A DNA stretch of 64,000 nt. Source: Stappia sp. (GTDB lineage Bacteria > Pseudomonadota > Alphaproteobacteria > Rhizobiales > Stappiaceae). The translations under genes and the position numbers were made by a program. Location: contig NZ_CP157793.1 of the NCBI RefSeq assembly GCF_040110915.1, forward strand, positions 186,001 to 250,000, given 5' to 3'. The notes beneath the pieces were generated by a model. The model was not told the DNA's origin, searched no databases, and saw nothing but the letters and a program-made list of their open reading frames with translations. Each line of letters starts with the position of its first letter. Positions within the stretch are counted from its first letter, which is position 1. Below, piece by piece: positions 38,666-63,531 of this stretch.

Positions 38666-38681
38666 TCGTCCTCTTGGACGA
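38666..38681. promoter_or_regulatory. Palindromic operator, perfect copy (site A)
   Basis: TCGTCC-TCTT-GGACGA, perfect 6-bp arms, 93 bases upstream of the thiolase gene at 38775. The same 16-bp palindrome recurs at 44611 and 63429 with different spacer bases, and imperfectly elsewhere in the catabolic cluster. Confidence 0.7.
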
Positions 38682-38774
38682 TGCGCCTCGTGCCGGTCCG
38701 CCTGAAAAAGGCCGGGACCGTCCCGGGCGTGCGCAGTGCCGCGCCCGGCAAGAGAATCCGGGCAGGGAGTTGTC

Positions 38775-40874: not shown

Positions 40875-40890
40875 TCGTCCGATTGCATGA
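40875..40890. promoter_or_regulatory. Operator, imperfect copy (site B)
   Basis: TCGTCC-GATT-GCATGA, 10 of 12 arm positions as in the perfect palindrome. A further half-site, TCGTCC at 40936-40941, lies 61 bases on. They are in the 343-base region before the ABC permease gene at 41168, which holds nothing else I can assign. Confidence 0.45.
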
Positions 40891-41167
40891 TGCCTGTCCC
40901 GCACTTTCCAAGCATGCTGTGACGATACGCGTTCGTCGTCCGACGGGTCCGACGGGCGTCGGGCGCCGGCCGTTCGCGCCGCTGTCGGGTTTTCAAAGCG
41001 GCCGAATCCCGGACGCGGAGAGGGGGGCGGACGGCAAGAGGAGGGCGGACGTCGGACGGCCGGACGTCGGGTGGACAAAAACGGGCCGGTATCTCGGGAA
41101 CGCAGACCGAAATGCTCGCGAAAAGAGCGCCGAAGGCCTTGAGTGCCGGGAGTTAAGGGGGAGGAAA

Positions 41168-42049: not shown

Positions 42050-42053
42050 CACC

Positions 42054-43865
42054 ATGGCAAGCCAGAACGACAGTCTCGCCGAGGCCGCCGGGCCGCAGGT
42101 GTCCCTGCCCACCGCACGCGGGCGCTTCCGCTCCGACGGGCTTCAGCTTCGCCTCGGCATCCTGCTGATCCTGCTGACCGGGATCGGGCCGAGCCTTCTG
42201 GGCAATTCCTACTGGGAGCACACGTTTCAGCTGGTGAACATCCTGATCGCGGTCGCCGTGCTGCAGAACTTCCTGTTCGTCGACGCCGGGCAGAAGAGTT
42301 TCGGCCAGGGCGCGATCCTCGGTCTCGGCGCCTATGGGCTGGCGATCGCCAGCGGCATTCACGGGGCGCCGCTGGCGCTTGGCGTTGTGGCGGCGGTCGG
42401 CGCCGCCATGCTGGGCGGGCTGCTGTTCGCCTTGCCCGCGCTCAGGGTCCAGGGCTTCCACCTCGGTTTCGCGACCCTGAGCGCGGCAATCGTCTTTCCC
42501 CAGCTCCTGATCCAGTTCGACGGCGTCACCCGGGGCATCAACGGCATCAGCCTCTACATTCCGGCCCTGACGAAACCCCTGGTGTTCGGTCTGAGCGGGC
42601 TGACGCTGCTGGTGACGGCGGTGCCGATCGCCGCGCTTCTGCTGCACTACAGCATCCGCAGCGCGCGGCTGGGGCGGCGCATGCGTCTGGCGGCGGAAAG
42701 CGCAGAGGCGGCGCGTGCGCTCGGGGTGCGCCCCGGCGCCATGCGGGCGCTCGCCTTCATGATCGTCTCGGCCGGCACCGGCCTGTGCGGGGCGCTTTAT
42801 GTGCCCACCGTCGGCTTCATCAGCCCGCAAGCCTTCATCATCGAACTGTCCTTCACCCTGTTCTTCGTGGTGGTCGTCGGAGGGCGCGGGCAACTGCTCG
42901 GACCGATCGTCGGCATCTGGGTGATCTACATCGTGCCCAATGTGCTGCTGGTGCAGCTCGTCGAATACCGGCTGCTGATCTACGGGTTCCTGACGCTGGC
43001 GGTGGTGATCGCCTTTCCCGACGGCCTCGTGGGCACCGTCGAGATGTGGCGCCGCAAGCGCTTCCAGCGCGGCGGCGGCGAGCAGGGCTTCCGCCTCGCG
43101 CCCTTCTCCGAAACCCTGGAGACGGTCGCGCCGCGCCCGGCCCCGGCGGACGCGCCTCCCATTCTCGAGGTCCGGGGCGCGGTCAAGCGCTTCGGGCAGG
43201 TCGTGGCGCTCGACAGGGTCGATCTGGAGGTGCGCCCCGGCGAGGTGCATGGCCTGGTCGGGGCCAACGGCTCCGGCAAGACCAGTCTTTTGAACATCGT
43301 TTCCGGGTTCAGCCGGCTGGATGACGGGAGCTACAGCTTTCGTGGTCGCGACGTGACCCGGCTGAATGCCACCGGCGTCGCCCGGATGGGGCTCGGTCGA
43401 ACCTTCCAGACCCCGCGCATCTTCACCGACGTGTCGGTATGGGCCAACATGCAGCTTGGCCTCGATGCCCGGGCGACGCCGCTCGACCCGCAGATGGCCC
43501 GGCTCGCCGAGCGCTTTCGCGAGGCCTATGGCGAGGACAATCCGGCCCTGCTGGCGCATGGCCAGCGGCGTCTTCTGGAAGTGATCCGGGTGGTCTTCGC
43601 CGATCCGGCGCTGGTGTTGTTCGACGAACCGGCGGCGGGGCTCGCGCCCGCCGAGCGGGCCGAGTTCTCCCGCCTGCTGCGCCAGCTCAGCACGCGGCTC
43701 GGCATGGCGGTGATCCTGGTGGAGCACGATCTCGACCTGGTCTGGGACATCGCCGACCGCATCACCGTTCTGGAGACGGGCCGGGTCGTGGCTTCCGGGC
43801 CGCCGCAGGCGCTCGCCAAGGACCCGGCGGTTCAGCATCTCTTCGTCGGAGGCAGCCATGCTTGA
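42054..43865 (+). CDS. ABC permease-ATPase fusion (LivM-LivG)
   Basis: A 603-residue fusion. Residues 1-about 330 are a LivM-type permease (FVDAGQKSFGQGAILGLGAYGLA; GVRPGAMRALAFMIVSAGTGLCGALYVPTVGFISP). About 365-600 is a LivG-type ATPase: Walker A GANGSGKTS near 405, QTPRIF Q-loop, signature LLAHGQRRLLE (Ser of LSxGQ replaced by Ala), Walker B LVLFDEPAAGL and H-loop VEHDLDL. LivM-LivG fusions occur but are less common than separate genes. Start ATG 42054. The stop overlaps livF by 8 bases. Confidence 0.9.
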   Translation: MASQNDSLAEAAGPQVSLPTARGRFRSDGLQLRLGILLILLTGIGPSLLGNSYWEHTFQLVNILIAVAVLQNFLFVDAGQKSFGQGAILGLGAYGLAIASGIHGAPLALGVVAAVGAAMLGGLLFALPALRVQGFHLGFATLSAAIVFPQLLIQFDGVTRGINGISLYIPALTKPLVFGLSGLTLLVTAVPIAALLLHYSIRSARLGRRMRLAAESAEAARALGVRPGAMRALAFMIVSAGTGLCGALYVPTVGFISPQAFIIELSFTLFFVVVVGGRGQLLGPIVGIWVIYIVPNVLLVQLVEYRLLIYGFLTLAVVIAFPDGLVGTVEMWRRKRFQRGGGEQGFRLAPFSETLETVAPRPAPADAPPILEVRGAVKRFGQVVALDRVDLEVRPGEVHGLVGANGSGKTSLLNIVSGFSRLDDGSYSFRGRDVTRLNATGVARMGLGRTFQTPRIFTDVSVWANMQLGLDARATPLDPQMARLAERFREAYGEDNPALLAHGQRRLLEVIRVVFADPALVLFDEPAAGLAPAERAEFSRLLRQLSTRLGMAVILVEHDLDLVWDIADRITVLETGRVVASGPPQALAKDPAVQHLFVGGSHA

Positions 43866-44580
43866 CGTTCGCAACCTGGTCGCCGGCTACGGGGACATTC
43901 CGGTGCTGCGCGGCATCTCGCTCCGGGCCGAGCCCGGCGAGATCCTCTTGATCGGCGGCGAGAACGGAGCCGGGAAATCCACGCTGCTGCGCGCGATCGC
44001 CGGTTTCATCAAACCCTCGCAAGGCAGCGTGGAGCTGGACGGAAAGCCGATCACCGGCATGGCGCCGGAAACCGCGGCGCGCGCGGGCTTGCGGCTGGTT
44101 CTGGACGGGCACCGCGTCTTTCCCGAACTCACCGTCTACGACAACCTGCGCATGGGGGTGGCCGCCCGTCCCGACGACCGGGCCAATCTGGCGCACTCGC
44201 TGGAAGAGATCTACGAGGTCTTCCCGATCCTCAAGGAGCGCTCCCGGGCGCTGGCGCGCGATCTGTCCGGCGGCCAGCAGCAGATCCTGGCGCTCGGGCA
44301 GGCCTTCGTCGCCCGGCCGCGCGTGCTGTTGTGCGACGAGCCGTCGCTCGGGGTGGCGCAGGCGCTGTTGCCGCCGATCCTGGCGTTCCTGCGGCGCTGG
44401 GCGCAGAGCGGAACGGCGGTCGTCATCGTCGACCAGCACGTGAAGATCAGCCTTCCCTACGCGGACCGCGCGATGATCGTCCAGCGCGGCGAGGTTCTGC
44501 TGGAGTGCCCCGCCGGCGAGCTGGACCGCAAGCTTTCGAGCATGCATGCGGCGCGCCAGAGCGCCCATGCCGGACGCTGA
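43858..44580 (+). CDS. ABC transporter ATPase LivF
   Basis: A 240-residue ATPase of the LivF type: Walker A GGENGAGKST, Q-loop region RLVLDGHRVFPELTV, canonical signature LSGGQQQILALGQ, Walker B RVLLCDEPSLGV and H-loop VDQHVKISL. It begins inside the end of the LivM-LivG gene, so translation is coupled. A perfect copy of the 16-bp palindrome follows its stop and precedes the next catabolic unit. Confidence 0.9.
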   Translation: MLDVRNLVAGYGDIPVLRGISLRAEPGEILLIGGENGAGKSTLLRAIAGFIKPSQGSVELDGKPITGMAPETAARAGLRLVLDGHRVFPELTVYDNLRMGVAARPDDRANLAHSLEEIYEVFPILKERSRALARDLSGGQQQILALGQAFVARPRVLLCDEPSLGVAQALLPPILAFLRRWAQSGTAVVIVDQHVKISLPYADRAMIVQRGEVLLECPAGELDRKLSSMHAARQSAHAGR

Positions 44581-44610
44581 TCGCCGGCCGCGCCGCGCGT
44601 CCGCCTGATG

Positions 44611-44626
44611 TCGTCCCATCGGACGA
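44611..44626. promoter_or_regulatory. Palindromic operator, perfect copy (site C)
   Basis: TCGTCC-CATC-GGACGA, perfect arms, 65 bases upstream of the crotonase-family gene at 44691. Confidence 0.7.
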
Positions 44627-44690
44627 TGAGGCGGGCGGGCGGGCGCGGTATCCCTGATGGCACCAGACAGCGAAGCCACAGGAGCGCGCC

Positions 44691-48824: not shown

Positions 48825-49625
48825 TCAAAGCCCGCCGAGCCGCTCCACCTGATCGAGAAACAGCGGTTTTTCGCCGCCGCCATGGATCTCCAGCGTCGCG
48901 CCGGAGATGTAGCGGGCCATCGGGCTGCACAGGAACACGACGCCCTTGGCGATGTCCTCCGGACGCCCCATCCGCCGGGCCGGCAGCGCGGCGGCAATCG
49001 CGGCGCGGGCGGCCTCGCTGCCATAGGCCTCGACCTCCCCATCCGTTTCCACCAGGCCGACGACGATGGCGTTGACGCGGATGTCGGGGCCCCACTCGGC
49101 GGCGAGGCTGCGGGTGAGACCCAGAAGCCCCGCCTTCGCGGCGCCGTAGACGGCGGTGCCGGGGGAGGGCCGGATCGCCGAGACGCTGGCGATATTGACG
49201 ATGGAACCGGCGTCGCGGCCGCCGCGCATCCAGGACGTCACCGCTTGCGACAGATGAACGGGGCCCGTCAGGTTCAGCGCGACAATGGCCTCGTGAAAGC
49301 GCGGCGAGACGGTCGCCGCATCCACCGCCGGCGAGCCGCCGGCATTGTTGACCAGAATGTCGATGCGACCGAACTCCCGGCCGACCGCGTCGACGAAGCC
49401 GGCCACCTCCTCGTGCTTGCGCACGTCGCAGGGCAGGAACCGCGCCGTGCGGTCGCCGGCCCGGGGAAGGCCGTCCGGCTGGCTGCGGCCGCATACGACG
49501 ACCTCGGCCCCGGCGGCGAGAAGATCGCGGGCGATCGCCGCTCCGATGCCGCGGGTTCCGCCCGTGACGATCGCCACGCGACCGTCGAGACATATGTCGG
49601 CATCGGACAGGTTGGATGCGATCAC
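48825..49625 (-). CDS. Short-chain dehydrogenase/reductase
   Basis: A 266-residue classical SDR with VTGGTRGIGAAIARDL, NNAGGSP, Ser in NIASVSAIR and Tyr-x3-Lys in YGAAKAG; the C-terminus SGATLEIHGGGEKP is typical. GTG start at 49625 is chosen because CAGGAG lies upstream; the frame continues further without support. It is transcribed with, and after, the FadA6-like thiolase gene. Probably oxidoreduction of a hydroxylated ring intermediate; exact substrate unknown. Confidence 0.85.
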   Translation of the reverse strand: MIASNLSDADICLDGRVAIVTGGTRGIGAAIARDLLAAGAEVVVCGRSQPDGLPRAGDRTARFLPCDVRKHEEVAGFVDAVGREFGRIDILVNNAGGSPAVDAATVSPRFHEAIVALNLTGPVHLSQAVTSWMRGGRDAGSIVNIASVSAIRPSPGTAVYGAAKAGLLGLTRSLAAEWGPDIRVNAIVVGLVETDGEVEAYGSEAARAAIAAALPARRMGRPEDIAKGVVFLCSPMARYISGATLEIHGGGEKPLFLDQVERLGGL

Positions 49626-49675
49626 GGCGTCAGGCTCCTGTGTCGGGAGGATCGGATCTTGCGGGCGCGCATGGC

Positions 49676-50827
49676 TCAAAGGCGCTCGATGATGGTCACA
49701 TTGGCCTGGCCGCCGCCCTCGCACATGGTCTGCAGGGCGAAACGGCCCTTGCGGCGTTCCAGCTCGTTCAGCATCGAGGTCATCAGCCGCGCGCCGGTGG
49801 CACCGAGCGGATGGCCGAGGGCGATGGCCCCGCCGTTGACGTTGACCCTTTCATGCGGAACGTCGAGATCCTTCATCCAGGCCAGCGGGATCGAGGCGAA
49901 GGCCTCGTTGCATTCGAACAGGTCGAAGTCGGCGATCTTCATGCCGGTCTTTTCCAGCGCGTGGCGCGTGGCCGGGATCGGCGCGGTCAGCATCCAGACC
50001 GGATCGGCGCCGCGCACGGAGAGGTGGTGGATGCGGGCGCGGGGCGTCAGGCCATGGTCCCGGACCGCCCGTTCCGAGGCGATCAGCAGCGCCGCGGACG
50101 CATCGCTGTTCTGGCTGGCGACGCCGGCATGCACGCGTCCGCCCTCGATCAGCGGTTCGAGGCCGGCCATCTTCTCCAGCGAGGTATCGCGCCGCGGCGG
50201 CTCGTCCACGCAAAACCCGTCGAGCGGGGCGATCTCATTGCGGAAAAGGCCGCCGTCGATGGCGGCGATGGCGCGCCGGTGGCTTTCGAGCGAAAACGCC
50301 TCCATCTCCGCGCGCGAGGAGTTCCAGTGCTCGGCGATCATCTCGGCGGCGCGAAACTGGCTGACCTCCTGATCGCCGTAGCGGGCGTGCCAGCCGGGCG
50401 AGGTGCTGAAAGGATCGGGATAGCCGAATTGCGCGCCCACCGTCATGGCCGCGCCGATCGGGATGGTGTTGAGGCTCTGCACGCCGCCGGCGATTACGAG
50501 ATCCTGCGTGCCGCTCATCACGGCCTGCGCGGCGAAATGGAGCGCCTGCTGGGAGGAGCCGCACTGCCGGTCGACGGTGACGCCGGGCACATGGTCGGGC
50601 AGACCGGCGACCAGCCAGCAGGTGCGGGCGATGTCGCCGGCCTGCGGACCGATGGTTTCCACGCATCCATAGATCACGTCGTCGACGGCGGCCGGGTCGA
50701 TGCCGGTGCGTGCCATCAGCGCCTTGATCGGGTGCGCCCCGAGATCGGCTGCGTGGAGCGTGGCCAGCGCCCCCTTCTTGCGGCCCACGGGGCTGCGCAC
50801 GGCATCGACGATATAGGCTTCGGGCAT
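49676..50827 (-). CDS. fadA6: FadA6-like thiolase of steroid C/D-ring degradation
   Basis: A 383-residue thiolase. Cys nucleophile in TVDRQCGSSQQALHFAAQA (about residue 88), His in NGGAIALGHPLGATGARL and Cys in LQTMCEGGGQANVTIIERL. Stretches such as DDVIYGCVETIGPQAGDIAR and RYGDQEVSQFRAAEMIAEHW closely resemble mycobacterial FadA6, which cleaves the ring-opened product of IpdAB. ATG 50827 has GAAGAGG upstream. Two imperfect operator copies lie in the divergent promoter region just upstream. The SDR gene follows in the same direction. Confidence 0.87.
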   Translation of the reverse strand: MPEAYIVDAVRSPVGRKKGALATLHAADLGAHPIKALMARTGIDPAAVDDVIYGCVETIGPQAGDIARTCWLVAGLPDHVPGVTVDRQCGSSQQALHFAAQAVMSGTQDLVIAGGVQSLNTIPIGAAMTVGAQFGYPDPFSTSPGWHARYGDQEVSQFRAAEMIAEHWNSSRAEMEAFSLESHRRAIAAIDGGLFRNEIAPLDGFCVDEPPRRDTSLEKMAGLEPLIEGGRVHAGVASQNSDASAALLIASERAVRDHGLTPRARIHHLSVRGADPVWMLTAPIPATRHALEKTGMKIADFDLFECNEAFASIPLAWMKDLDVPHERVNVNGGAIALGHPLGATGARLMTSMLNELERRKGRFALQTMCEGGGQANVTIIERL

Positions 50828-50892
50828 GGTTCGGACCTCTTCACAGAACGCGCCAGGGGCCGGCACCCTAGGCAAGGAGTGGACGCGGACAA

Positions 50893-50945
50893 TCACCCGA
50901 ATAGACGAGCCGGAGGGCTGCCGGACCGCTCACCCAAACAGACGA
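50893..50945. promoter_or_regulatory. Two imperfect operators in a divergent promoter (sites E1, E2)
   Basis: TCACCC-GAAT-AGACGA (50893-50908) and TCACCC-AAAC-AGACGA (50930-50945) share identical arms and the same 4-base spacing as the perfect TCGTCC-N4-GGACGA sites, matching 9 of 12 arm positions. One lies 66 bases before the FadA6-like gene, the other 59 bases before the divergent gene at 51004. Their identical deviations suggest duplication. Confidence 0.5.
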
Positions 50946-51003
50946 TGCGGTAAAGCGGAAACGGACCAATCCTGAATTGCATGCTGCGCAAAGGGAGGAG
51001 TTC

Positions 51004-52020
51004 ATGTCACGTCGCCTCGGTTTGTTTTTCACGCTTTTTCTGTCCACGTCCCTTCTGGCGGGCCCAGCTGCCGCCTCCGAGTGGCGCATTCTGGCGCAAT
51101 TCGATGACGCGCCGGAGGGCCTCGTCGACGACGGAGAGGGCGGCTTTTACGTCAGCCTGTTTCACTCCGGCCATGTGATGCAGGTCGCCGCCGACGGCAC
51201 GGTCGAGCAGATCGCCGATCTGCGGACGGTGATCGGAGAGGCCAAGGGCAGCACCGTCGGCATCGATTGGGACGGCGAGGACACGCTCTATGTCGCCTTC
51301 TCCGAGTATTCCAAGCGCTTTCCCTGGCCGGCCGAGGCCGAGCTTTCCGTCGAGGCCTGCGGCGATGCGACCGTGACCCGGTCGGGTCTCTACGCGGTGA
51401 CCCTGTCGAGCGGGAAGGTGGAGCCCGTGGTGACGCGAGCGGACGGCTATCCGTTCTGCTTTCCCGACGATCCGGTGGTCGCCTCCGACGGCAGCATCTA
51501 TCTGTCCGATCTCAGCCTGAAGGGGATCTGGAAGATCGACCCCGAGGAAAAGTCCGCGGTGCTGTGGTCGAAGGACCCGTTGTTCGACCCGGCCGGCAAA
51601 TCGCTGAGCGGATATCCCGTCGGCGTGAACGGCATTGCCCTGGCGCCGGATGAAAGCGCGCTGTTCGGCGTGACGGGCGGGATCCCGATGCTGGTCAAGG
51701 TGCCGATCGAGGCCGACGGCAGCGCCGGCAAGGCGGAGATGCTGACCTTCGGCTACGACAACATGGACGGCCTGGAGGTCGATCCGCAGGGAAATTTCTA
51801 CCTGACGGAGACCCTGCGCAGCGAAATCTGGAAGGTGAGCCCGGACGCGGGCCGGCGCGAACAGCTCGGCGAACCGCTGCAGGCGCCGCTCGGCGCGCCG
51901 GCCAGCCTCGCCTTCGGCGACGACAGCATCTGTGTGACCAATCTCAACTTCTTCGGCCATCTTCCCGACGACAAGGCGCGCTCGATCGCCTGTCGCAAGC
52001 TCGGCCCCACGCTCTGGTAA
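51004..52020 (+). CDS. Secreted SMP-30/gluconolactonase-like protein
   Basis: A 338-residue beta-propeller protein with a signal peptide (1-24, LGLFFTLFLSTSLLAGPAAA). Repeated blades read EGLVDDGEGGFYVSLFHSGHVMQV, DDPVVASDGSIYLSDLSLKGIWKI and DGLEVDPQGNFYLTETLRSEIWKV, the SMP-30 / strictosidine-synthase-like pattern. Such proteins hydrolyse lactones or bind metal in the periplasm. Four Cys may form disulfides. Start ATG 51004 follows GGGAGGAG. Co-location with steroid genes suggests action on an exported or imported lactone or ester, but this is open. Confidence 0.75.
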   Translation: MSRRLGLFFTLFLSTSLLAGPAAASEWRILAQFDDAPEGLVDDGEGGFYVSLFHSGHVMQVAADGTVEQIADLRTVIGEAKGSTVGIDWDGEDTLYVAFSEYSKRFPWPAEAELSVEACGDATVTRSGLYAVTLSSGKVEPVVTRADGYPFCFPDDPVVASDGSIYLSDLSLKGIWKIDPEEKSAVLWSKDPLFDPAGKSLSGYPVGVNGIALAPDESALFGVTGGIPMLVKVPIEADGSAGKAEMLTFGYDNMDGLEVDPQGNFYLTETLRSEIWKVSPDAGRREQLGEPLQAPLGAPASLAFGDDSICVTNLNFFGHLPDDKARSIACRKLGPTLW

Positions 52021-52092
52021 CGGGCACGGCCCCGAGGCCGCGCGGACAGACGATGCGACTGCCGTCGTCGCGACCGGGCGTCCCCGTCTTGC

Positions 52093-52173: not shown

Positions 52174-53619
52174 ATGAAACAGTATGAAACGGATGTCCTC
52201 GTCATCGGAGGCGGACCGGCGGGATCGACGGTGGCGACCATCCTGGCGCAGAACGGGATCAGGACGAACGTCCTGGAGCGCGACACCTTTCCCCGCTATC
52301 ACATCGGCGAATCCCTGCTCGCCTCCCTGATGCCGATGATCGACATCATCGGCGCGGGAGAGAAGATCAAGGCGCATGGCTTCGTCGAGAAGCCCGGGGG
52401 CTACTTCAACTGGGGCAACGAGAAATGGTCGTTTCGCTTCGATGAGGTCGAGGGCGCGCCGACGCATTCCTATCAGGTGAAGCGCTCGGAGTTCGACGAA
52501 CTGCTGCTCGACCACGCCGGCGAGACGGGTGCCAGCGTGCATCAGAACGTCAAGGTCACGAAGATCAACTTCGAGGACGGGCGGGCCGTCAGCGCCGATT
52601 TTCATGACCGGACCAAGGACAGCAAGGGCACGATCCGCTTCAAGTATCTGGTCGACTGTTCGGGCCGCAGCGGCGTGATGGCCACCGAGTACACCCGTAG
52701 CCGGCAGTTCCACGAAGCCTTCAAGAACGTGGCGATCTGGTCCTATTGGACCGGCTGCGACCTGAACTATGACGATCTGCCCGAGGGCTCCACGCGCATC
52801 ATCTCCATCGAGGCCGGCTGGATCTGGTTCATTCCGCTGCACGACGGCACCGTGAGCGTCGGCATCGTGCTGAGACACGACCATCTGCGCAAGGAGCGGG
52901 CGGCCGGTCGCAGCAACGAGGAGATCTACGACCGCACGCTCGCGGAACACCCCGAGGCGCAGATCATCCTGGCCAACGCCACGCGCCGCGAGGTGCGCAT
53001 GGAGACGGATTATTCCTACACCTCCGACCGGTTTTCCGGCCCCGGCTACTTCATGTGCGGGGATGCCGCCTGTTTCCTCGACCCGCTGCTGTCGAGCGGC
53101 GTGCATCTGGCGATGGTGTCCAGCCTGATCGCCGGAGCCTGCATCGCCAGCGTGCTGAAGGGCGAGGTCGCCGAGGACCGGGCCGTCAACTTCTTCGAGA
53201 CCAGCTATCGACAGGCCTACCTCCGGTTCCTCATGCTCGTCTCGTCCTTCTATGACCTCGGTCGGGGTCAGGACGGATACTTCTGGGAGGCGCAGCGTCT
53301 CACCTCGAAGGACTATGCCGACGGCGACATGAAGAAGGCCTTCGTGAGCATCGTCTCCGGCGGCGCCGATTTCGACGATGTCCGCGACGGGCAATACGGC
53401 GAGGTGGTTGCGAAGAAGGTGTCGGAGAAGCTGCGCCTGGGGGTCGACATGCGGCGCGGGGCGGCCGAGGTCGGCGAGGAAACGCGGCAGCAGACCATGG
53501 AGTTCATGGACGCCCTCAACGGTCTGACCTTCCTGCAGAAGACCGCCGCCATCGACGGTCTCTATGTGGCCACATCGCCGGAGGTCGTCCTGAAGGAAAC
53601 GGCAGACGCGCACGTTTGA
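52174..53619 (+). CDS. FAD-dependent halogenase-like flavoprotein
   Basis: A 481-residue flavoprotein. FAD Rossmann motif IGGGPAGST (11-19); PRYHIGESLL (40-49) typical of flavin halogenases; Lys73 in FVEKPGGYFNWG at the place of the conserved catalytic Lys; W-I-W-F-I-P (216-221), the WxWxIP signature that excludes monooxygenase activity; and FLDPLLSSG (301-309), the FxxPxxSxG halide-site motif. Both signatures together point to an FADH2-dependent halogenase of the phenol/CmlS type rather than a geranylgeranyl reductase. Start ATG 52174 follows AGGAGG. No carrier protein or flavin reductase gene is adjacent. Halogenation in a steroid-catabolic cluster would be novel; a non-halogenating role is possible. 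Confidence 0.78.
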   Translation: MKQYETDVLVIGGGPAGSTVATILAQNGIRTNVLERDTFPRYHIGESLLASLMPMIDIIGAGEKIKAHGFVEKPGGYFNWGNEKWSFRFDEVEGAPTHSYQVKRSEFDELLLDHAGETGASVHQNVKVTKINFEDGRAVSADFHDRTKDSKGTIRFKYLVDCSGRSGVMATEYTRSRQFHEAFKNVAIWSYWTGCDLNYDDLPEGSTRIISIEAGWIWFIPLHDGTVSVGIVLRHDHLRKERAAGRSNEEIYDRTLAEHPEAQIILANATRREVRMETDYSYTSDRFSGPGYFMCGDAACFLDPLLSSGVHLAMVSSLIAGACIASVLKGEVAEDRAVNFFETSYRQAYLRFLMLVSSFYDLGRGQDGYFWEAQRLTSKDYADGDMKKAFVSIVSGGADFDDVRDGQYGEVVAKKVSEKLRLGVDMRRGAAEVGEETRQQTMEFMDALNGLTFLQKTAAIDGLYVATSPEVVLKETADAHV

Positions 53620-53787: not shown

Positions 53788-55386
53788 ATGATAGCAGAAG
53801 ACGACCAATGGAGGTTCACCACGATCCCGGCGCTGTGCGCCCGCGCCGCGCGGGTCTATGGCGACCGGCTGGCGGTCGAGGACGCCGGGATGACACTGTC
53901 CTTCGTCGAACTGGACGCCATGCGCCGGCGGATGGCCAAGGCGATGATGGCGGCCGGCGTGGAGAAGGGCGACCGGGTGATGATCTGGGCGCCGAACGGC
54001 TGGCGCTGGTTCGTGACCGCGCTCGGCCTCGTCAGCGCCGGCGCCGTGCTCGTGCCGGCGAGCACCCGCTTCAAGGGCGGCGAGATCGCCGATCTGGTCA
54101 AGCGCAGCGGCACGTCGCTTCTGTTCTCCGTCGGCGACTTTCTCGACCGCTATTATCCCGATCAGCTGAAGCCGGACACGCGGGCGCGGCTGCGGGAGGT
54201 CGTCGTCTTCGAGGGTCCGCGCGGCGGCGACCGCGACTGGGAGGCGTTTCTGGCCGCCGGCGACGAGATTTCCGACGCGGACCAGGCCGCGCGCGAGGCC
54301 ACGGTGGGGCCGGATGACCTGTGCGACATGCTGTTCACCTCCGGCACCACCGGCTACCCGAAGGGCGTGATGTACGCCCATCGCCAGTGCCTGCGCGGCA
54401 TCGACGGCTGGGCGACGAGGGTCGGGATCCGCGAGCACGACCGCGTGCTGGTCATCCCGCCGTTCTTCCACGCCTTCGGCTACCGCTGCGGCGCCATCGT
54501 CTCGATGATGCGCGGCGCGGTGCTGATCCCGCATCTGACCTATGACGCGGAGGAAATCCTGCGGCGGGTGCAGGACAGCGGCATCACCGTCATTCCCGGT
54601 CCGCCGGCGGTCTTTCACGGCATGCTGCAGCATCCGGGGCTGGCCGCGTTCGACACGCGGACGCTGCGCCTCGGCGTGACCGGCGGGGCGTCGGTGCCGG
54701 ACGTTCTCGTCCGGCGCATGCGGGAGGATCTCGGGTTCGAGGGCGTGGTGAGCGGCTATGGCCTCACCGAGTGCGGCGGCTTCGGCACCATGTGCGACGC
54801 ATCCGATCCGGATGCGGTGATCGCCAGGACCGCGGGCCGGGCGATGCCCGACACGCAAGTGCGCATCATGGGGGCGGACGGCGCGTTCGTGCCGGACGGC
54901 GAGCCGGGCGAGGTGGTGATCCGCGGCTACTCGGTGATGAAGGGATACTTCGAGGATCCGGTCGCGACCCGCGAGACGATCGACGCCGACGGCTGGCTGC
55001 ATACCGGCGACATCGGCGTCCTCGACGCGAACGGCAATCTGCGCATCGAGGACCGGCTGAAGGACATGTACATCACCGGCGGATTCAACTGCTATCCGGC
55101 GGAAATCGAACGCATTCTCAGCGGTCATCCGGCGATCGGCGTCGTCTCGGTGATCGGCGTCCCCGACGAGCGTCTCGGCGAGGTGGGCCGGGCCTTCGTC
55201 ATCCTGCGTCCCGGCAAGACGGCGAGTGAGGAGGAGATCATCGCCTGGGCGCGGGCGAACATGGCGAACTTCAAATGTCCGCGCGCGGTCGAGATCCGCA
55301 CCTCCCTGCCGATGAGCGCGCAGGGCAAGGTGCAGAAGCAGCGCCTGCGGGAGGAACTGGCGGGCCGCGTCGGCGTCGCGGTCTGA
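53788..55386 (+). CDS. fadD3: Acyl-CoA synthetase, FadD3-like (HIP-CoA ligase candidate)
   Basis: A 532-residue ANL-superfamily ligase. AMP-binding motif LFTSGTTGYPKGVMYAH (about 186-202), FFHAFGYRCG, GYGLTECGG, TGD in WLHTGDIG and C-terminal catalytic Lys in QGKVQKQRL. Features RFKGGEIADLVKRSG and the overall pattern resemble FadD3, which activates the steroid fragment HIP to HIP-CoA. Start ATG 53788 was chosen over upstream in-frame codons in a Pro/Arg-rich stretch. It lies between the halogenase-like gene and the ABC binding protein gene. Confidence 0.82.
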   Translation: MIAEDDQWRFTTIPALCARAARVYGDRLAVEDAGMTLSFVELDAMRRRMAKAMMAAGVEKGDRVMIWAPNGWRWFVTALGLVSAGAVLVPASTRFKGGEIADLVKRSGTSLLFSVGDFLDRYYPDQLKPDTRARLREVVVFEGPRGGDRDWEAFLAAGDEISDADQAAREATVGPDDLCDMLFTSGTTGYPKGVMYAHRQCLRGIDGWATRVGIREHDRVLVIPPFFHAFGYRCGAIVSMMRGAVLIPHLTYDAEEILRRVQDSGITVIPGPPAVFHGMLQHPGLAAFDTRTLRLGVTGGASVPDVLVRRMREDLGFEGVVSGYGLTECGGFGTMCDASDPDAVIARTAGRAMPDTQVRIMGADGAFVPDGEPGEVVIRGYSVMKGYFEDPVATRETIDADGWLHTGDIGVLDANGNLRIEDRLKDMYITGGFNCYPAEIERILSGHPAIGVVSVIGVPDERLGEVGRAFVILRPGKTASEEEIIAWARANMANFKCPRAVEIRTSLPMSAQGKVQKQRLREELAGRVGVAV

Positions 55387-55477: not shown

Positions 55478-56671
55478 ATGATCGGGAATGGAAGGTGGCT
55501 CGGGTTCTGCGCCGCGATGGCGATGGCGCTCGTATCGACGCAAGGTCGCGCGGCGGAACCGCTGAAGCTTGGCGGCATGGTCTCCCTGACCGGGACCGGC
55601 GCCTCCATCGGCAAGGTGGCGGAGATCGGCTGGCGCATGGCGGTGGAGGACATCAACGCCCAAGGCGGCATCGCGGGGCGGCCGGTGGAGTTCATTCTGG
55701 CCGACACGCTGACGGATCCGACCCATGCGGTCGGCGAGGCGCGGCGGCTGATCGAGAACGAGCGGATCGCGGCGATGGTCGGCCCGGTGACCAGTCAGGA
55801 GGTGATCCCGGTGACCGCCGTCACGACGGCGGCGAACCTGGCGCAGATCACGGCGGCGTCCTCGGCGACGCTGACGCCCCAGGCCGCGCCCTATCATTTC
55901 TCCAACTCGCCCACCGGTCTCGCGCAGATGATCCCCAACATCGATTATGCGCTCGATGTTCTGGGACTGACCAGACTGGCGATCATCTCCGACAATGGCG
56001 GCATGTCGAAGGATGCCGTCGCGCAGATGATCCGCTATCTGGAAACGCGCGAGCTGGAGCCGGTCGAGGTGCAGGAATTCGCCTTCCGCACGGAGGACAT
56101 GACGCCGCAGCTGTTCTCCCTGCGCTCGAGCGGCGCGGAGGCCGTGCTGATCATCAACTCGCTCGGAGACGATGCCCGCAAGTTCCTGCAGAACCGAGAT
56201 GAAATCGGGTGGGACGTGCCGGTGTTCGGCAGTCTGACGATGACCAATTTCGCCGTCGGAAACGCCAGGGTTCTCGGCGAGGAGGCCTTCGACGGTGTCC
56301 GCAGCGTGCAATTCGTCGGCATGACCTATTGCGAGGGGGATCCGGTCGGGGCCTCCGACTATGCAAGGTTCGACAAGCGCGCGAAGGACACGGTGAGCGA
56401 TCTCGAGCGGCTCGGCGGCAGTTCCTCGATCATCCCCTACTACATCGAGCCCTTCATCCTGAAGGCGGCGATCGAAGGGGCCGGTTCGACCGACGGCGAC
56501 CGGATCGCCGCCTGGATCGAGGCCAATGCGTCCTCGATGGACAACATGCTGGGAACTTTCGAGGCCAGCAGCGAAACCCATTTCCTGCCGTCGTCGGAAA
56601 CGCTGACGGTGGTCGAGGATGCCTTCGCGCCGCGCGAGGACGGGCTGACCCGACGCGCCCACTGCGACTGA
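55478..56671 (+). CDS. ABC transporter substrate-binding protein (Leu/Ile/Val type)
   Basis: A 397-residue periplasmic binding protein. Signal peptide about 1-25 (GFCAAMAMALVSTQGRAA). Type I periplasmic fold: LKLGGMVSLTGTGASIGKVAEIGWRMAVEDINAQGG at the start, and IAAMVGPVTSQEVIPVTAVTT in the ligand cleft. A very strong ribosome site (AAGGAGGAAG) suggests high expression. It completes the importer formed by the genes at 41168-44580. Binding-pocket residues do not identify the ligand; a steroid-derived acid is suggested by context only. A strong terminator follows. Confidence 0.9.
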   Translation: MIGNGRWLGFCAAMAMALVSTQGRAAEPLKLGGMVSLTGTGASIGKVAEIGWRMAVEDINAQGGIAGRPVEFILADTLTDPTHAVGEARRLIENERIAAMVGPVTSQEVIPVTAVTTAANLAQITAASSATLTPQAAPYHFSNSPTGLAQMIPNIDYALDVLGLTRLAIISDNGGMSKDAVAQMIRYLETRELEPVEVQEFAFRTEDMTPQLFSLRSSGAEAVLIINSLGDDARKFLQNRDEIGWDVPVFGSLTMTNFAVGNARVLGEEAFDGVRSVQFVGMTYCEGDPVGASDYARFDKRAKDTVSDLERLGGSSSIIPYYIEPFILKAAIEGAGSTDGDRIAAWIEANASSMDNMLGTFEASSETHFLPSSETLTVVEDAFAPREDGLTRRAHCD

Positions 56672-56709
56672 CGGAAACCCACGGGCACGGCCGTGCCAGA
56701 CCGGGAGGA

Positions 56710-56735
56710 GGGCCGCCGCCAGGCGGCCCTTTTTT
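56710..56735 (+). terminator. Rho-independent terminator after the binding protein gene
   Basis: GGGCCGCC (56710-56717), loop GCCA, GGCGGCCC (56722-56729), then six T. Confidence 0.85.
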
Positions 56736-56832
56736 GTGTGCCCGCATTCGCATGTGTCGGCATCCGAACGCGCGGGGCATGCGCGCGCCGCGCGCAGCGG
56801 CGCCGGATTGCGCGCCGTCGGTCAAGGCTCCA

Positions 56833-56848
56833 TCCTGCATATGGACGA
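56833..56848. promoter_or_regulatory. Operator, weak copy (site F)
   Basis: TCCTGC-ATAT-GGACGA: one perfect half-site GGACGA followed by TG as in sites A, C and D, the other half matching 4 of 6. It is 61 bases before the fused acyl-CoA dehydrogenase gene and just after a terminator, where a new promoter is expected. Confidence 0.35.
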
Positions 56849-56908
56849 TGCGGCACGGCGTCCGGCGTGGCTGATGGACGGTGGAACAAGGCAGATCCGG
56901 GAAGACCC

Positions 56909-59278
56909 ATGGACACGCTATCGAGCGATGAACACACGATGATCCGAGATGCGGTGGCGCGCTTTCTGGAGCGCTCCGGCGGGCTGGAGCCGGCGGCCCG
57001 GGTCTCGGACGGCGGCGAGGCGGGCGCCGTGTGGCGGGGGCTGGCCGCGGAGTTGCAGGTCACCGCCGTCGGCCTGCCCGACGCATGCGGCGGCCTGGGT
57101 CCCGACATGCGCGCGCTGGTCGCGGTCGCGCGGGAACTGGGCAGGGTGCTGACGCCGGTTCCTTACGTGAGCACGGTGGCGGTCGCCGGGCAGATCCTGG
57201 CGGCGGCGACGCCGGGCGCGGGCCGCGATTCGTGGCTGTCGCGGATCGCGGAGGGACGCCTGCGCGCCGTGGTCCCGCAGGGCGGCACGCGCGCCGGCGA
57301 TTGCTGGGACACGTCCCCCTTTCACGCCGAGCGCGCCGGCGAGACCTATGTGCTGGCGGGCCGGGGCGGTCCGTTCGCCGATCTGATGGAGGCGGATCTG
57401 GTGCTGGTCCCGGCGCTCTGCGCGGGCGAACCGCTGCTCTTCGCGCTCGACGCCGAGGCGCTGGCGGACCGCCGCGAGGCCTGCGCGCCCATGGACGCGA
57501 CGCAGCCGACGGGCCGGCTGCGCCTGGACGGCCTGCGCCTCACCGCCAGTGCCGTTCTGGACGCAGGCGCCGGTTTCCGGCGCCGGTGCCGGGAGGCGAA
57601 CGACCGGGCGCGGCTCGCCCGCGCGGCCGAGATGAGCGGCGCGGCGCGCGGCGCCTTCACGCTGACACGCGACTATATCGCCGAGCGTCGCCAGTTCGGC
57701 CGCACCATTGCCTCCTATCAGGCGATCAAGCATCGGATGGCGGATCTCTTCGTCCGGTTGAACCGGGTGGATGCGCTGATCGACGGCGCGGCGCTGGCGT
57801 TCGACCGTCTCGACGGCGGAGCCGGCACGGGCGACGGGGATGCGGCGGCGGTCGCGGGAGCCGAGGCCCGCGTCGCCCAGGCGATGGCCTGCGAGGCCCT
57901 GTTCGCCGCAAGTGCCGAGGCAATCCAGCTTCACGGCGGCGTCGGCATGACCTGGGAGTATGCGCCGCATCTGTTCTTCAAGCGCGCCACCGCCATGCGG
58001 GCCCTGTGCGGTCCCCCGGAGGCTGCATTCCGGGCGTGCGGCGGGGATCTGATCGACCGGCGGCTTTCCGCGCTTCCGCTCGGCGGGGCCGAGGGCGGCG
58101 GCGAGGCCGCGCTGCGCAAGGCGGTGGCCATCTGGATGGCGGACAACCTCACCGGCGATTTCGCGCCTCTGCGCGGGCGCGGCGGAGCCGGCGACGGCGA
58201 TGCCCTCCCGGACTTGCGAAAGGCCTGGGAGCGGCGTCTGGCGGCGGGCGGCTGGACCTGTCTGGGCGTGCCGAAGGCGCTCGGCGGGCGCGGCATGTCG
58301 GTGCGCGATCAGGTGATCTTCAACGAGGAATATGCCCGGGCGGGCGGCCCGGGGCGTCTGGGGCACATCGGAGAGGGGCTGCTGGCGCCGACACTTGCCG
58401 CCTTCGGGACGCAGGACCAGAAGGCGCGCTTCCTGCCCGGGATCCTGCAGGGCACTGTCTTCTGGGCGCAGGGCTATTCGGAGCCGGGGGCCGGGTCGGA
58501 TCTTGCGAGCCTGCGCACCCGGGCCCGCCGCGATCCTGCGTCCGGGGACTGGATCGTGGACGGACAGAAGACCTGGACCTCGCTCGCGCATCTTTCCGAC
58601 TGGATCTTCGTGCTGGCCCGGGCCGAGGAAGGATCGCGCGGCCGCGACGGCCTGATCCTGCTGCTGATGCCCCTCGACCAGCCGGGGATCGACATCCGGC
58701 CGATCCGGCAGATCAACGGCGGCCGCGAGTTCAACGAGGTCTTCTTCGACGCCGCCGTGGCGCGCAAGGAAGACGCGGTGGGGGCGCCGGGCGAGGGCTG
58801 GTCCATCGCCATGGCGTTGCTCGGCTTCGAGCGCGGCATCTCGACCCTGGGTCAGCAAATGGGCTTCGCGCGCGAACTGGAGGCGATCGTCGCGCTGGCG
58901 CGCCGGGTGGCCGAGCCCATGCAGCATGCCGAGGCGCTGGGGCGCGCCTGGGCCGGATTGCGGGCGATGCGCCACGGCGCCTTGCAGATCCTCGGCGCGG
59001 CCGAGCGCGGCGAGGCGGGGGCCGAGGCCCTTGGCTACAAATACGACTGGTCGAACTGGCATCGCGGGCTTGGCGAACTGGCCATGGACGTTCTGGGGCC
59101 GGAGGCGGCCGCGCACGCGACAGAGCCCGAGATCGCCCGCCTGCAGCAGATGTATCTGTTCTCCAGAGCCGAGACGATCTACGGCGGCACCAACGAGATC
59201 CAGTTGAATATCATTGCGGAACAGGGCCTTGGCATGCCGCGCGAGCCGCGTGGACAGGCCCGGGGCGCGCCGCGATGA
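56909..59278 (+). CDS. Fused double acyl-CoA dehydrogenase
   Basis: A 789-residue protein made of two acyl-CoA dehydrogenase units. Residues 1-about 385 lack a catalytic Glu motif but keep ERRQFGRTIASYQAIKHRMA and QLHGGVGMTWEYAPHLFFKRA (partner type). About 395-789 is catalytic type with YSEPGAGSDLASL, a Glu in LGFERGIST, and IYGGTNEIQLNIIAEQGLG. This equals the two separate genes at 46754 and 45578 joined in one chain, in partner-then-catalytic order, and parallels alpha2-beta2 steroid acyl-CoA dehydrogenases. ATG 56909 follows GGGAAGA. Probably acts on HIP-CoA-derived or later ring intermediates. Confidence 0.87.
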   Translation: MDTLSSDEHTMIRDAVARFLERSGGLEPAARVSDGGEAGAVWRGLAAELQVTAVGLPDACGGLGPDMRALVAVARELGRVLTPVPYVSTVAVAGQILAAATPGAGRDSWLSRIAEGRLRAVVPQGGTRAGDCWDTSPFHAERAGETYVLAGRGGPFADLMEADLVLVPALCAGEPLLFALDAEALADRREACAPMDATQPTGRLRLDGLRLTASAVLDAGAGFRRRCREANDRARLARAAEMSGAARGAFTLTRDYIAERRQFGRTIASYQAIKHRMADLFVRLNRVDALIDGAALAFDRLDGGAGTGDGDAAAVAGAEARVAQAMACEALFAASAEAIQLHGGVGMTWEYAPHLFFKRATAMRALCGPPEAAFRACGGDLIDRRLSALPLGGAEGGGEAALRKAVAIWMADNLTGDFAPLRGRGGAGDGDALPDLRKAWERRLAAGGWTCLGVPKALGGRGMSVRDQVIFNEEYARAGGPGRLGHIGEGLLAPTLAAFGTQDQKARFLPGILQGTVFWAQGYSEPGAGSDLASLRTRARRDPASGDWIVDGQKTWTSLAHLSDWIFVLARAEEGSRGRDGLILLLMPLDQPGIDIRPIRQINGGREFNEVFFDAAVARKEDAVGAPGEGWSIAMALLGFERGISTLGQQMGFARELEAIVALARRVAEPMQHAEALGRAWAGLRAMRHGALQILGAAERGEAGAEALGYKYDWSNWHRGLGELAMDVLGPEAAAHATEPEIARLQQMYLFSRAETIYGGTNEIQLNIIAEQGLGMPREPRGQARGAPR

Positions 59279-59389
59279 CGGGGTGCCACGGCGCGGGCGG
59301 AGGAGCGACGGAGCACCGGGGGTGGGGCTCGGGGCGGCGCGGCATGGCTCATGACACATGACGAAACGAGATCGCAGGAAGGGAGCGAA

Positions 59390-60148
59390 ATGACGGGGGA
59401 TTTCAGGGGAAAAGTGGTTGCCGTCACCGGGGCGGCGCATGGCATCGGCCGGGCGATCGCGCTCGGGTTCGCGGCCGAACAGTCGGATCTGGCCTTGCTC
59501 GACCGCGACGGCGAGGCCCTGATGGCGACGGCGGAGGAGGCGCGGGCGCGCGGCGCGCGGGTCATGGTGATCGAGGGCGATCTGCTGGACCGGGCGCATG
59601 TCGCCGCCGGCTTCGCGCGGATCGAGACGGAGCTCGGGCCGGTGCACACGCTGGTCAACAATCTCGGCCAGACGGCGCGGGAACGCTACTCCGAGTTCTA
59701 TCTGGCGGAAGGCGACACGCTGGATTTCGTGATCGATATCTCGCTCGGCGCCACGCTGCATTGCTCGCGCCAGGTGGTGCCGGGGATGCGGGCGCGCGGA
59801 GCGGGGCGGATCATCTCGATATCGTCGGACTCCGCCCTCAACGGCGATATCGGAACCGTCGACTATGCGGCGGCCAAGTCCGGGGTGCTCGGCTTCACCC
59901 GCGCGCTCGCCCGCGAACTGGGGCCGCACAAGGTGACGGTCAACGCGATCTGCCCCGGTCCCACCAACACGCGCGCGATGCAGCGCATCCCCAAGGACGC
60001 CTATGAGCGCGCCCGCGACGCGATCCCCCTGGGCGAACTCTGCGAGCCGGAGGACATCGCCAACGCGGCGGTGTTTCTGGCCAGCGACAAGGCCCGCTGC
60101 ATCACCGGCCAGACGCTCGTCGTGAACGGGGGGCGCGTCTTCAACTGA
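59390..60148 (+). CDS. Short-chain dehydrogenase/reductase
   Basis: A 252-residue SDR: VTGAAHGIGRAIALGF, NNLG in place of NNAG, Ser in SISSDSAL, Tyr-x3-Lys in YAAAKSG. ATG 59390 follows AGGAAGGGAG. The C-terminus ITGQTLVVNGGRVFN is typical of the 3-oxoacyl reductase type. It belongs to the co-directional run 56909-64000. Substrate presumably a hydroxyacyl-CoA of the pathway. Confidence 0.87.
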   Translation: MTGDFRGKVVAVTGAAHGIGRAIALGFAAEQSDLALLDRDGEALMATAEEARARGARVMVIEGDLLDRAHVAAGFARIETELGPVHTLVNNLGQTARERYSEFYLAEGDTLDFVIDISLGATLHCSRQVVPGMRARGAGRIISISSDSALNGDIGTVDYAAAKSGVLGFTRALARELGPHKVTVNAICPGPTNTRAMQRIPKDAYERARDAIPLGELCEPEDIANAAVFLASDKARCITGQTLVVNGGRVFN

Positions 60149-60229: not shown

Positions 60230-61342
60230 ATGGAGATGATCGGGCAAGGGCTGGAAACACGCCTCACGCGGGCGCTCGGGTGCCGCTATCCGGTGGTTCA
60301 AACGGCGATGGGATGGGTGGCCGACCCGAACCTCGTGGCGGCGACGACCAATGCCGGCGGGTTCGGCTTTCTGGCCGCCGCCTCGATCCCGCCGGGGGAA
60401 ATCGACGCCGCGATCGCCGCCGTCAAGGCGGCCACGGACGGTCCGTTCGGGGTCAACTTCCACATGTTCCAGCCCAATGCGGAGGAAGTGATCGAGGCGA
60501 TCCTGCGGCACCGGGTGCGCGCGGTGAGCTACGGGCGCGGCCCGGACGCGGCGACCATCGCCCGGTTCCGCGATGCCGGGATCGAGTGCATGCCGACCGT
60601 CGGTGCGGTGAAACACGCCGTGCGGGCGGTTGAACTGGGCGCCAGCATCATCACCGTGCAGGGCGGGGAAGGGGGCGGGCATACCGGATCGGTGCCGACC
60701 TCGCTGCTTCTGCCGCAGGTGCTCGATGCCGTCGACGTGCCGGTGGTCGCCGCCGGCGGCTTCTACGACGGGCGGGGGCTGGCCGCCGCGCTCGCCTGGG
60801 GCGCGGACGGCATCGCCATGGGCACCCGCTTTCTCCTGACCCGGGAAAGCCCGGTGCATCCGGAAACGCTCGCCCGCTACCTCAAGACCGCCGATCCGGC
60901 GGCGATCCGGGTGTCGAAGGCGGTCGACGGTCTGCCGCAGCGCTTTATCGACAACGAGGAACTGCGCCGCATGGAAGGGATGCGCGCCCCGGCGCGCTTC
61001 GTCGCCAGCCTGCGTCATGCCCTGTCCTGGGGGCGCGCGCAGGGGATGGGGCATGCCGACATGCTGCGGCTGGCGCTGCGCGCCTTCCGGGCCGGCGACG
61101 CGGGCTTCGCCGCCACCGTGATGGCCCCGAACCTGCCGCGCCTGGTGGAACAGGGTCTCGTCGCCGGCAACACCCGGGGCGGGCTGCTGCCCTCCGGGCA
61201 GGTCGCGGCGCTGATCGGCGAGCTGCAAAGCTGCGAGGCGCTGATCGCCGGGATTGTCACGCAGGCGATGCAACGGCTGGCCGCCTTGCGGCGGATGGAT
61301 CCCGGCCCCTGCGACGCGCCGGAACGGGGAGCGATGGCATGA
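60230..61342 (+). CDS. ipdC: IpdC-like flavin-dependent reductase (nitronate monooxygenase family)
   Basis: A 370-residue FMN protein of the nitronate monooxygenase fold. PVVQTAMGWVADPNLVAATTNAGGFGFLA near the N-terminus, QGGEGGGHTGSVPTSLLLP for FMN phosphate binding, and AGGFYDGRGLAAALAWGADGIAMGTRFLLT. These stretches closely resemble mycobacterial IpdC, which introduces a ring double bond in HIP-derived CoA esters. ATG 60230. The stop overlaps the EchA20-like gene (ATGA), as expected for a pathway operon. Confidence 0.87.
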   Translation: MEMIGQGLETRLTRALGCRYPVVQTAMGWVADPNLVAATTNAGGFGFLAAASIPPGEIDAAIAAVKAATDGPFGVNFHMFQPNAEEVIEAILRHRVRAVSYGRGPDAATIARFRDAGIECMPTVGAVKHAVRAVELGASIITVQGGEGGGHTGSVPTSLLLPQVLDAVDVPVVAAGGFYDGRGLAAALAWGADGIAMGTRFLLTRESPVHPETLARYLKTADPAAIRVSKAVDGLPQRFIDNEELRRMEGMRAPARFVASLRHALSWGRAQGMGHADMLRLALRAFRAGDAGFAATVMAPNLPRLVEQGLVAGNTRGGLLPSGQVAALIGELQSCEALIAGIVTQAMQRLAALRRMDPGPCDAPERGAMA

Positions 61343-62115: not shown

Positions 62116-62931
62116 ATGGATCTTGATACTTCGCCTGACCGCGCCCCGGCCGTCGCCCCGCCGTATGTTCCCGGCCATGGACTGCTCGCGGGACGGTCGG
62201 TTCTGATCACCGCCGCCGCCGGACAGGGCATTGGCTTCGCCACCGCCCGCCGCGCGCTGGAAGAAGGCGCGCGGGCGCTGACCATCTCCGACATTCATCC
62301 GCGCCGCCTCGAGGAGGCGGTGGCGACCTTGCAGGAGATCGCGCCGCAGACCCCGGTGGCCGGCCAACTCGCCGATGTCACCGTCGAGGAGCAGGTGCAG
62401 GGCCTGATCGGCAAGGCCGACGCGGCGATGGAGGGCATCGACGTGCTCGTCAACAATGCCGGTCTGGGCGGCGTCAAACCGGTCGTGGAGATGACCGACG
62501 AGGACTGGCACCGGGTGCTCGACGTGACGCTGAACGGCACCTTCCGCATGACCCGCGCGGGATTGCGGGCGATGATGTCCCGCCGGCGCGGCACCATCGT
62601 CAACAACGCCTCGGTGCTCGGCTGGCGGGCGCAGAAGGGGCAGGCGCATTACGCCGCCGCCAAGGCGGGGGTGATGGCGCTGACGCGCTGCAGCGCGCTT
62701 GAAGCGGCGGAGCACGGCATTCGCGTCAACGCCGTCTCCCCCTCCATCGCCATGCATGACTTCCTCAAACGCTCGGCGCCCGAGGAGGTGCTGTCTCAGC
62801 TTGCGGCGCGCGAGGCCTTCGGCCGGGCCGCCGAGGTCTGGGAGGTGGCCAATGTGATCATGTTCCTGGCCAGCGACTATGCCTCCTACATGGTCGGCGA
62901 AGTGGTCTCCGTGTCCAGTCAGCACGCGTGA
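62116..62931 (+). CDS. ipdF: IpdF-like short-chain dehydrogenase
   Basis: A 271-residue SDR with long N-terminal lead. LITAAAGQGIGFATARRALEEGA (cofactor), NNAGLGGVKPVVEMTDEDWHRVLDV, NNASVLGWRAQKGQAHYAAAKAGVMALTRCSALEAAEHGIRVNAVSPSIA and FLASDYASYMVGEVVSVSSQH. These almost read as mycobacterial IpdF, which oxidises the 5-hydroxyl of the HIP-derived CoA ester. ATG 62116. Catalytic Ser, Tyr and Lys are in place. Confidence 0.9.
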   Translation: MDLDTSPDRAPAVAPPYVPGHGLLAGRSVLITAAAGQGIGFATARRALEEGARALTISDIHPRRLEEAVATLQEIAPQTPVAGQLADVTVEEQVQGLIGKADAAMEGIDVLVNNAGLGGVKPVVEMTDEDWHRVLDVTLNGTFRMTRAGLRAMMSRRRGTIVNNASVLGWRAQKGQAHYAAAKAGVMALTRCSALEAAEHGIRVNAVSPSIAMHDFLKRSAPEEVLSQLAAREAFGRAAEVWEVANVIMFLASDYASYMVGEVVSVSSQHA

Positions 62932-62944
62932 GGGGGAAGAGCGC

Positions 62945-63412
62945 ATGACATTCCGTTTTCGCTCGGCCGACGAGGCCATCGCCGCCATCGGCCGCACGCT
63001 CGGTCCCAGCGATTGGCTGACCATCGACCAGGAGCGCATCAACCTGTTCGCGCAGGCCACCGGGGATTTCCAGTGGCTGCACGTGGATCCGCAGCGCGCG
63101 GCCGAGGGGCCGTTCGGCGGGACCATCGCCCACGGGTTCCTGTCGCTGTCGCTGACCAACCTGTTTCTGCCGGATCTCTTCATGCCGGACAATCTGGACT
63201 GGGGCGTGAACTATGGTCTCGACCGGGTGCGCTTTCCCGCGCCGGTGCCCGTCGGGTCGCGCATCCGCGCCCGTGGCGAGTTGCTCGACGCCAGGCCCGT
63301 CGGCGAGGGCGTGGTCCAGACGAAGGTGCGCATGGAGATCGAGGTCGAGGGCGGGGACAAGCCGGCCTGCGTGGCCGACACCCTCCAGCGCTATGCGTTT
63401 CTCGCGACCTGA
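62945..63412 (+). CDS. MaoC-family (R)-enoyl-CoA hydratase
   Basis: A 155-residue single hot-dog domain protein. The hydratase-2 motif is clear: FAQATGDFQWLHVDPQRAAEGPFGGTIAHGFLSLSL, with Asp and His in place for catalysis. Acts as a dimer on trans-2-enoyl-CoA. ATG 62945 follows GAGGGGGAAGAG. Position just before the IpdA-like gene suggests a role in the late, ring-opened acyl-CoA steps. Confidence 0.9.
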   Translation: MTFRFRSADEAIAAIGRTLGPSDWLTIDQERINLFAQATGDFQWLHVDPQRAAEGPFGGTIAHGFLSLSLTNLFLPDLFMPDNLDWGVNYGLDRVRFPAPVPVGSRIRARGELLDARPVGEGVVQTKVRMEIEVEGGDKPACVADTLQRYAFLAT

Positions 63413-63428
63413 GCTTTCGCTGTCGGGG

Positions 63429-63444
63429 TCGTCCTGTTGGACGA
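63429..63444. promoter_or_regulatory. Palindromic operator, perfect copy (site D)
   Basis: TCGTCC-TGTT-GGACGA, perfect arms, 88 bases before the IpdA-like gene and 17 bases after the MaoC gene stop. It marks a new promoter for ipdA and what follows. Confidence 0.7.
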
Positions 63445-63531
63445 TGAAGGAGACGCCGCGCGGCTCTAGCCTCTCCGGGACATGGCGGACGACCGTCCGC
63501 GAAACGACAACGGCGAGTACGGGTTCTGGGT

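Follow-up and report, generated by a model that had tools for sequence, protein, structure and literature searches.

A flavin-dependent halogenase-family gene within a HIP catabolic cluster of Stappia

Results

We analysed a window of 64,000 nucleotides of Stappia sp. DNA and considered a gene cluster that extends from 38.7 to 65.2 kb in window coordinates (Table 1). Judged by its gene set, which includes FadD3, IpdC, an EchA20-type hydrolase and IpdAB, this is a HIP (C/D-ring) catabolic cluster. The exact roles of the enzymes are putative and follow from protein family and gene set; IpdB is confirmed by its top PDB match, the IpdAB entries 6co6/6con. As in the KstR2 regulon for HIP catabolism of Mycobacterium and Rhodococcus (PMC5380842), FadD3, IpdC-like, EchA20-type, IpdAB, thiolase and acyl-CoA dehydrogenase genes lie beside a TetR regulator. 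Unlike that system, the genome of the window lacks the A/B-ring genes KshA and HsaC-like, and the text of PMC5380842 names no halogenase. KstR2 is known to respond to a HIP lactone (PMC8399759), so the secreted SMP-30-like propeller may possibly act as a periplasmic HIP-lactonase.

Table 1. Genes and operator-like sites of the cluster, in window coordinates.
Feature	Position	Strand	Remarks
Operator-like site CTCGTCCTCTTGGACGAT	38665..38682		upstream of thiolase PRK07108
Thiolase PRK07108	38775..39980	+
TetR-family regulator, candidate operator-binding protein	40084..40824	+	62-64% identity to Phyllobacteriaceae HIP-cluster counterparts
Branched-chain-type ABC transporter: LivH, LivM-LivG fusion, LivF	40883..44580	+
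Operator-like site GTCGTCCCATCGGACGAT	44610..44627		upstream of hydratase/dehydrogenase genes
Enoyl-CoA hydratase, two acyl-CoA dehydrogenases (one IpdE2-like), SDR PRK07791	44691..48768	+
SDR PRK07856, IpdF candidate	48825..49724	-
Thiolase PRK07801	49676..50827	-	divergent from SMP-30-like gene; homologue beside Phyllobacteriaceae halogenase
Variant sites ATCACCCGAATAGACGAG, CTCACCCAAACAGACGAT	50892..50946		between thiolase and SMP-30-like gene
Secreted SMP-30/gluconolactonase-like beta-propeller	51004..52020	+	PF08450; PDB lactonase matches
Half-site AGACGAT	52048..52054		126 bases upstream of halogenase start
Flavin-dependent halogenase-family protein, 481 aa	52174..53619	+	K73, W216-P221, D303, F301-G309
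FadD3-family acyl-CoA ligase, HIP-CoA ligase candidate	53788..55386	+	NF005801 659.7 bits, cut-off 657
Branched-chain-type ABC substrate-binding protein	55478..56671	+
Two acyl-CoA dehydrogenases fused, one 861-aa ORF	56693..59278	+	separate genes in Aquamicrobium, Aminobacter
SDR, BadH/FabG-like	59351..60148	+
IpdC-like FMN enzyme, FabK/nitronate monooxygenase family	60230..61342	+
EchA20-type ring hydrolase candidate, PRK07938	61339..62109	+
SDR PRK07831	62116..62931	+
MaoC-like hydratase	62879..63412	+	long ORF, true start further in
Operator-like site GTCGTCCTGTTGGACGAT	63428..63445		upstream of ipdA
IpdA, followed by IpdB	63532..64000	+	runs beyond window end; IpdA-IpdB = genome 249532-251223

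The original prediction had placed the gene in a steroid degradation cluster. Targeted searches of the one-contig genome resulted in zero matches to KshA_C and zero to a BphC-like extradiol dioxygenase (HsaC/TesB); that is, the combination taken to mark a complete 9,10-seco steroid pathway (KshA with HsaC/TesB) was not found in the genome. Since both are absent, the label of steroid degradation is too broad: the C/D-ring (HIP) part holds and the wider pathway does not, and the strain therefore seems to feed on HIP-type compounds, which other steroid degraders perhaps supply. As had been claimed, neither a carrier protein nor a flavin reductase is found among the annotated cluster genes from 38.7 to 65.2 kb.

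The halogenase-family gene starts with ATG, with AGGAGG shortly upstream. Its translation carries both signature motifs of flavin-dependent halogenases (FDHs), WIWFIP at residues 216–221 and FLDPLLSSG at 301–309, and the lysine of the KPGG loop at position 73, all as predicted, together with a GxGxxG dinucleotide-binding motif (GGGPAG, 12–17). K73 aligns with the corresponding lysine of RadH, CmlS, CndH, FasV and Mpy16, and D303 with D325, the second essential residue of RadH; the RadH mutants K74A and D325A lose activity (PMC5637929). In an alignment that also included CrpH-type proteins and solved halogenases, K73, D303, WxWxIP and FxxPxxSxG are unchanged among the window protein and seven close orthologues; K73 and the two motifs are likewise invariant in a second alignment. 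Judged from these residues, the halide and catalytic site appears intact, and hence loss of the halide site was not seen. The substrate-stacking phenylalanine of RadH, F328, is replaced by Leu306, and leucine is also found in CrpH-type proteins and FasV. Because of this replacement we regard the window protein as a neighbour, not a member, of the fungal RadH/Rdc2 phenol halogenases. The gene is under strong purifying selection, with dN/dS of 0.03–0.08 within Stappia and of 0.12 between Stappia and Phyllobacteriaceae, where dS is near-saturated.

Profile and PDB comparisons agree with the motifs. The protein matches Pfam Trp_halogenase with 127 bits and the CmlS equivalog model NF033113 with 293.6 bits, far below its curated cut-off of 900, and its PDB sequence matches to FasV (8zop), CmlS (3i3l), RadH (8gu0) and CndH (3e1t) have E-values of 1e-67 or better. 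As the homology to FDHs spans most of the protein, the motifs are not a chance match. Thus, the core claim of a halogenase-signature flavoprotein within a degradation cluster was confirmed. An AlphaFold2 model, for which plasmid-derived rows were left out of the alignment, reached a mean pLDDT of 77.7, with residues 1–350 mostly near 90 and a poor C-terminus. The folds nearest to this model are FDHs, with structural Z-scores of 35–46 (45.8 for FasV, 40.9 for CndH and 40.5 for RadH) compared with 32.5 or less for monooxygenases. FasV, CndH and CmlS are among the best matches in both sequence and fold, but they share only about 33–36% identity with the window protein and come from biosynthetic clusters.

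In a maximum-likelihood tree the window protein falls in one clade with RadH and CrpH-type proteins (support 98/96); the placement of RadH is less sure because it sits on a long branch. The closest relative with a known setting is WP_114085963.1 of Nostoc ATCC 53789 (46% identity over 97%), which has the same lysine, aspartate, WxWxIP and FLDPLLSSG. Its gene adjoins genes for a PKS-type protein, a P450, a TauD-like dioxygenase and an aspartate decarboxylase, a neighbourhood that we take to be the cryptophycin cluster; the name CrpH for this protein is our assumption from gene order. Unlike the Stappia gene, it belongs to a PKS/NRPS natural-product cluster, and RadH to a fungal polyketide setting. 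Further CrpH-like members of the clade are encoded by a Chloroflexota MAG and by Fischerella, Streptomyces and Nocardia. A class-level search resulted only in further homologues at 36% identity or less, which the tree puts in other FDH clades. The same Stappia genome encodes a second FDH (locus 3004889–3009127, ORF 1438–2949 of the locus, + strand) of the classical Trp-halogenase type (Pfam 334.7 bits, GWIWEIP and FIEPLESTG). By sequence, tree position and predicted fold, the 481-aa protein is a flavin-dependent halogenase.

Conservation of the neighbourhood had been proposed as a check, and HIP clusters do accompany the halogenase gene in both Stappia and Phyllobacteriaceae. Orthologues in named Stappia genomes are 91–96% identical to the window protein, which places the window in this genus. 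Among 14 Stappia genomes, the same five carry the halogenase and IpdB, a co-occurrence that may reflect a single gain event. Orthologues with 77–79% identity were detected in two Aminobacter and one Aquamicrobium, and all three carriers have IpdB (63–66%), the EchA20-type hydrolase (69–70%) and most or all other HIP-cluster genes. KshA-like matches in Aminobacter (25–29 bits) were too weak to be accepted as KshA. In Aquamicrobium a flavin reductase-like protein (PF01613, locus ORF 4152–6088) is encoded about 5 kb from IpdB and is a possible source of FADH2. An order-level sample, in which the genome of the window was the only carrier, showed no co-occurrence beyond that genome.

Synteny was compared in eight loci, the window and the seven close orthologue loci. 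A four-gene module of halogenase, FadD3, thiolase and SMP-30-like genes is present in 8/8, with a FadD3 orthologue next to the halogenase and the SMP-30-like gene retained in each. In Stappia, FadD3 is single-copy and adjoins the halogenase. Aminobacter and Aquamicrobium have two FadD3 and two PRK07801 thiolase genes: one pair lies in the HIP cluster, and the second FadD3 and thiolase form a side module with the halogenase and the SMP-30-like protein. LysR and LysE-type genes also occur in those Phyllobacteriaceae halogenase modules that were annotated. FadD3 and thiolase trees did not show the Stappia copies to group with the copies of the Phyllobacteriaceae module.

The palindrome TCGTCC-N4-GGACGAT occurs in three exact copies in the window, upstream of thiolase PRK07108, the hydratase/dehydrogenase genes and ipdA, while shuffled windows contain on average 0.21 matches even with one mismatch allowed. 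The motif was spotted by inspecting these same promoters, and the shuffle counts serve as a guard for this guided discovery. Before the halogenase gene, the window strain has only one arm of the site, the other being degenerate, and a whole variant site, TTCACCCAAACAGACGAT, is present at this position in S. indica, S. taiwanensis and S. stellulata DSM 5886. The two Aminobacter and the Aquamicrobium carry an exact copy of a related palindrome, ATCGTC-N6-GACGAT, about 125–130 bases upstream of the halogenase gene (expected count 0.01 per 21 kb locus), and the first FadD3 gene of these genera has upstream sites with one or two mismatches. Thus, HIP genes and the halogenase gene have in common a putative operator site of the type found at ipdA. 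Because of this shared operator-like site and the four-gene synteny, we set aside mere hitchhiking of the halogenase gene.

Discussion

The main setting in which FDHs are known is the biosynthesis of natural products. We found no description of an FDH in a HIP or steroid-degradation regulon in the open-access literature, covered as full text and in part as titles and the opening of abstracts. The most likely interpretation of the sequence data is that a working FDH was recruited to the HIP regulon, where it would halogenate a phenolic or enolic HIP-linked compound. In its specific form, this explanation holds that a few Rhizobiales gained a two-component, FADH2-dependent halogenase of the RadH/CrpH clade and brought it under HIP regulon control; we give it an even chance.

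The steps of the proposed mechanism are drawn from known FDH family chemistry. FADH2 would be supplied by a reductase encoded elsewhere and react with O2 to C4a-hydroperoxyflavin, which with a halide would yield HOX. HOX would then move to K73 and form a haloamine, while D303 would deprotonate the phenol or enol, which would then be halogenated at carbon. The paired CoA ligase and thiolase would process the substrate, presumably an enolisable or phenolic HIP-linked acid. The product might be exported, as the LysE-type gene in the examined Phyllobacteriaceae modules would allow, or the halogen might be lost later as a cryptic step. Several points speak against this explanation. It is not obvious why HIP catabolism should need a halogen, since the classical pathway runs without one (PMC5380842). 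In addition, the cluster has no flavin reductase or carrier protein, Leu306 replaces the stacking phenylalanine, and one arm of the site is degenerate in the window strain. A link to CmlS-type chlorination, considered for the acyl-CoA ligase and thiolase near the halogenase, was rejected, as the open-access papers examined gave no support for it and CmlS lies elsewhere in the tree.

The main rival, which we consider possible though doubtful, is a repurposed halogenase fold that acts on a HIP variant as a halide-free monooxygenase or oxidase via C4a-hydroperoxyflavin, in a hydroxylation, ring oxygenation or dehydrogenation. The catabolic setting fits such a role, as HIP chemistry calls for oxidations and not for halogens, and no halogenated product is known; the protein also matches the models of QhpG (187 bits), annotated as a superfamily monooxygenase, and LodB (129 bits). 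However, K73, D303, WxWxIP and FxxPxxSxG are all kept under purifying selection, WxWxIP has been suggested to prevent monooxygenation (PMC8407142), and the nearest clade members of known role or setting are halogenases.

A working FDH could also serve catabolism itself if halogenation of a HIP-derived enol or acyl-CoA enabled a C–C bond or ring step, a cryptic halogenation in degradation that we think unlikely. We assign a low probability, too, to the four-gene module being a small biosynthetic unit that is merely co-regulated with HIP catabolism and draws off a HIP-type or phenylpropanoid acyl-CoA to make a halogenated compound for export, as a signal or deterrent. The Phyllobacteriaceae module, with its own FadD3 and thiolase apart from a complete HIP cluster and with a LysR regulator and LysE-type gene in the modules examined, is consistent with such a unit. 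However, it lacks a carrier protein, PKS or NRPS, and in Stappia the module is embedded among HIP genes and holds the only FadD3 copy; therefore its genes must also serve catabolism.

A role in removing halogen from halogenated steroids or HIPs, for which the suggestion in the original prediction is the one argument, is highly improbable, as no known dehalogenase is among the annotated genes of the cluster and FDH family chemistry runs in reverse. Membership in the geranylgeranyl reductase or BchP-like reductases, raised as a refuting placement, is close to negligible: the fold is common to both (3oz2) and TIGR02032 does match, but with 116.1 bits it stays below its curated cut-off of 158.8 and far below the 294 of the CmlS model, the Z-score of 30.4 for 3oz2 compares with 35–46 for FDHs, the halogenase motifs are retained, and the tree places the protein with RadH and CrpH. 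Of the original prediction, the halogenase signature and the conservation in similar clusters hold, the broad steroid setting narrows to HIP, and the dehalogenation-linked step finds no support.

If the preferred explanation of a halogenase recruited to the HIP regulon is true, bacteria would make halogenated steroid-ring fragments or would employ a halogen as a temporary catabolic handle. The enzyme would then be a phenol or enol halogenase that might accept steroid-like bicycles. As Stappia and Aminobacter are culturable, both readings, halogenated fragments and a temporary handle, would be directly testable.
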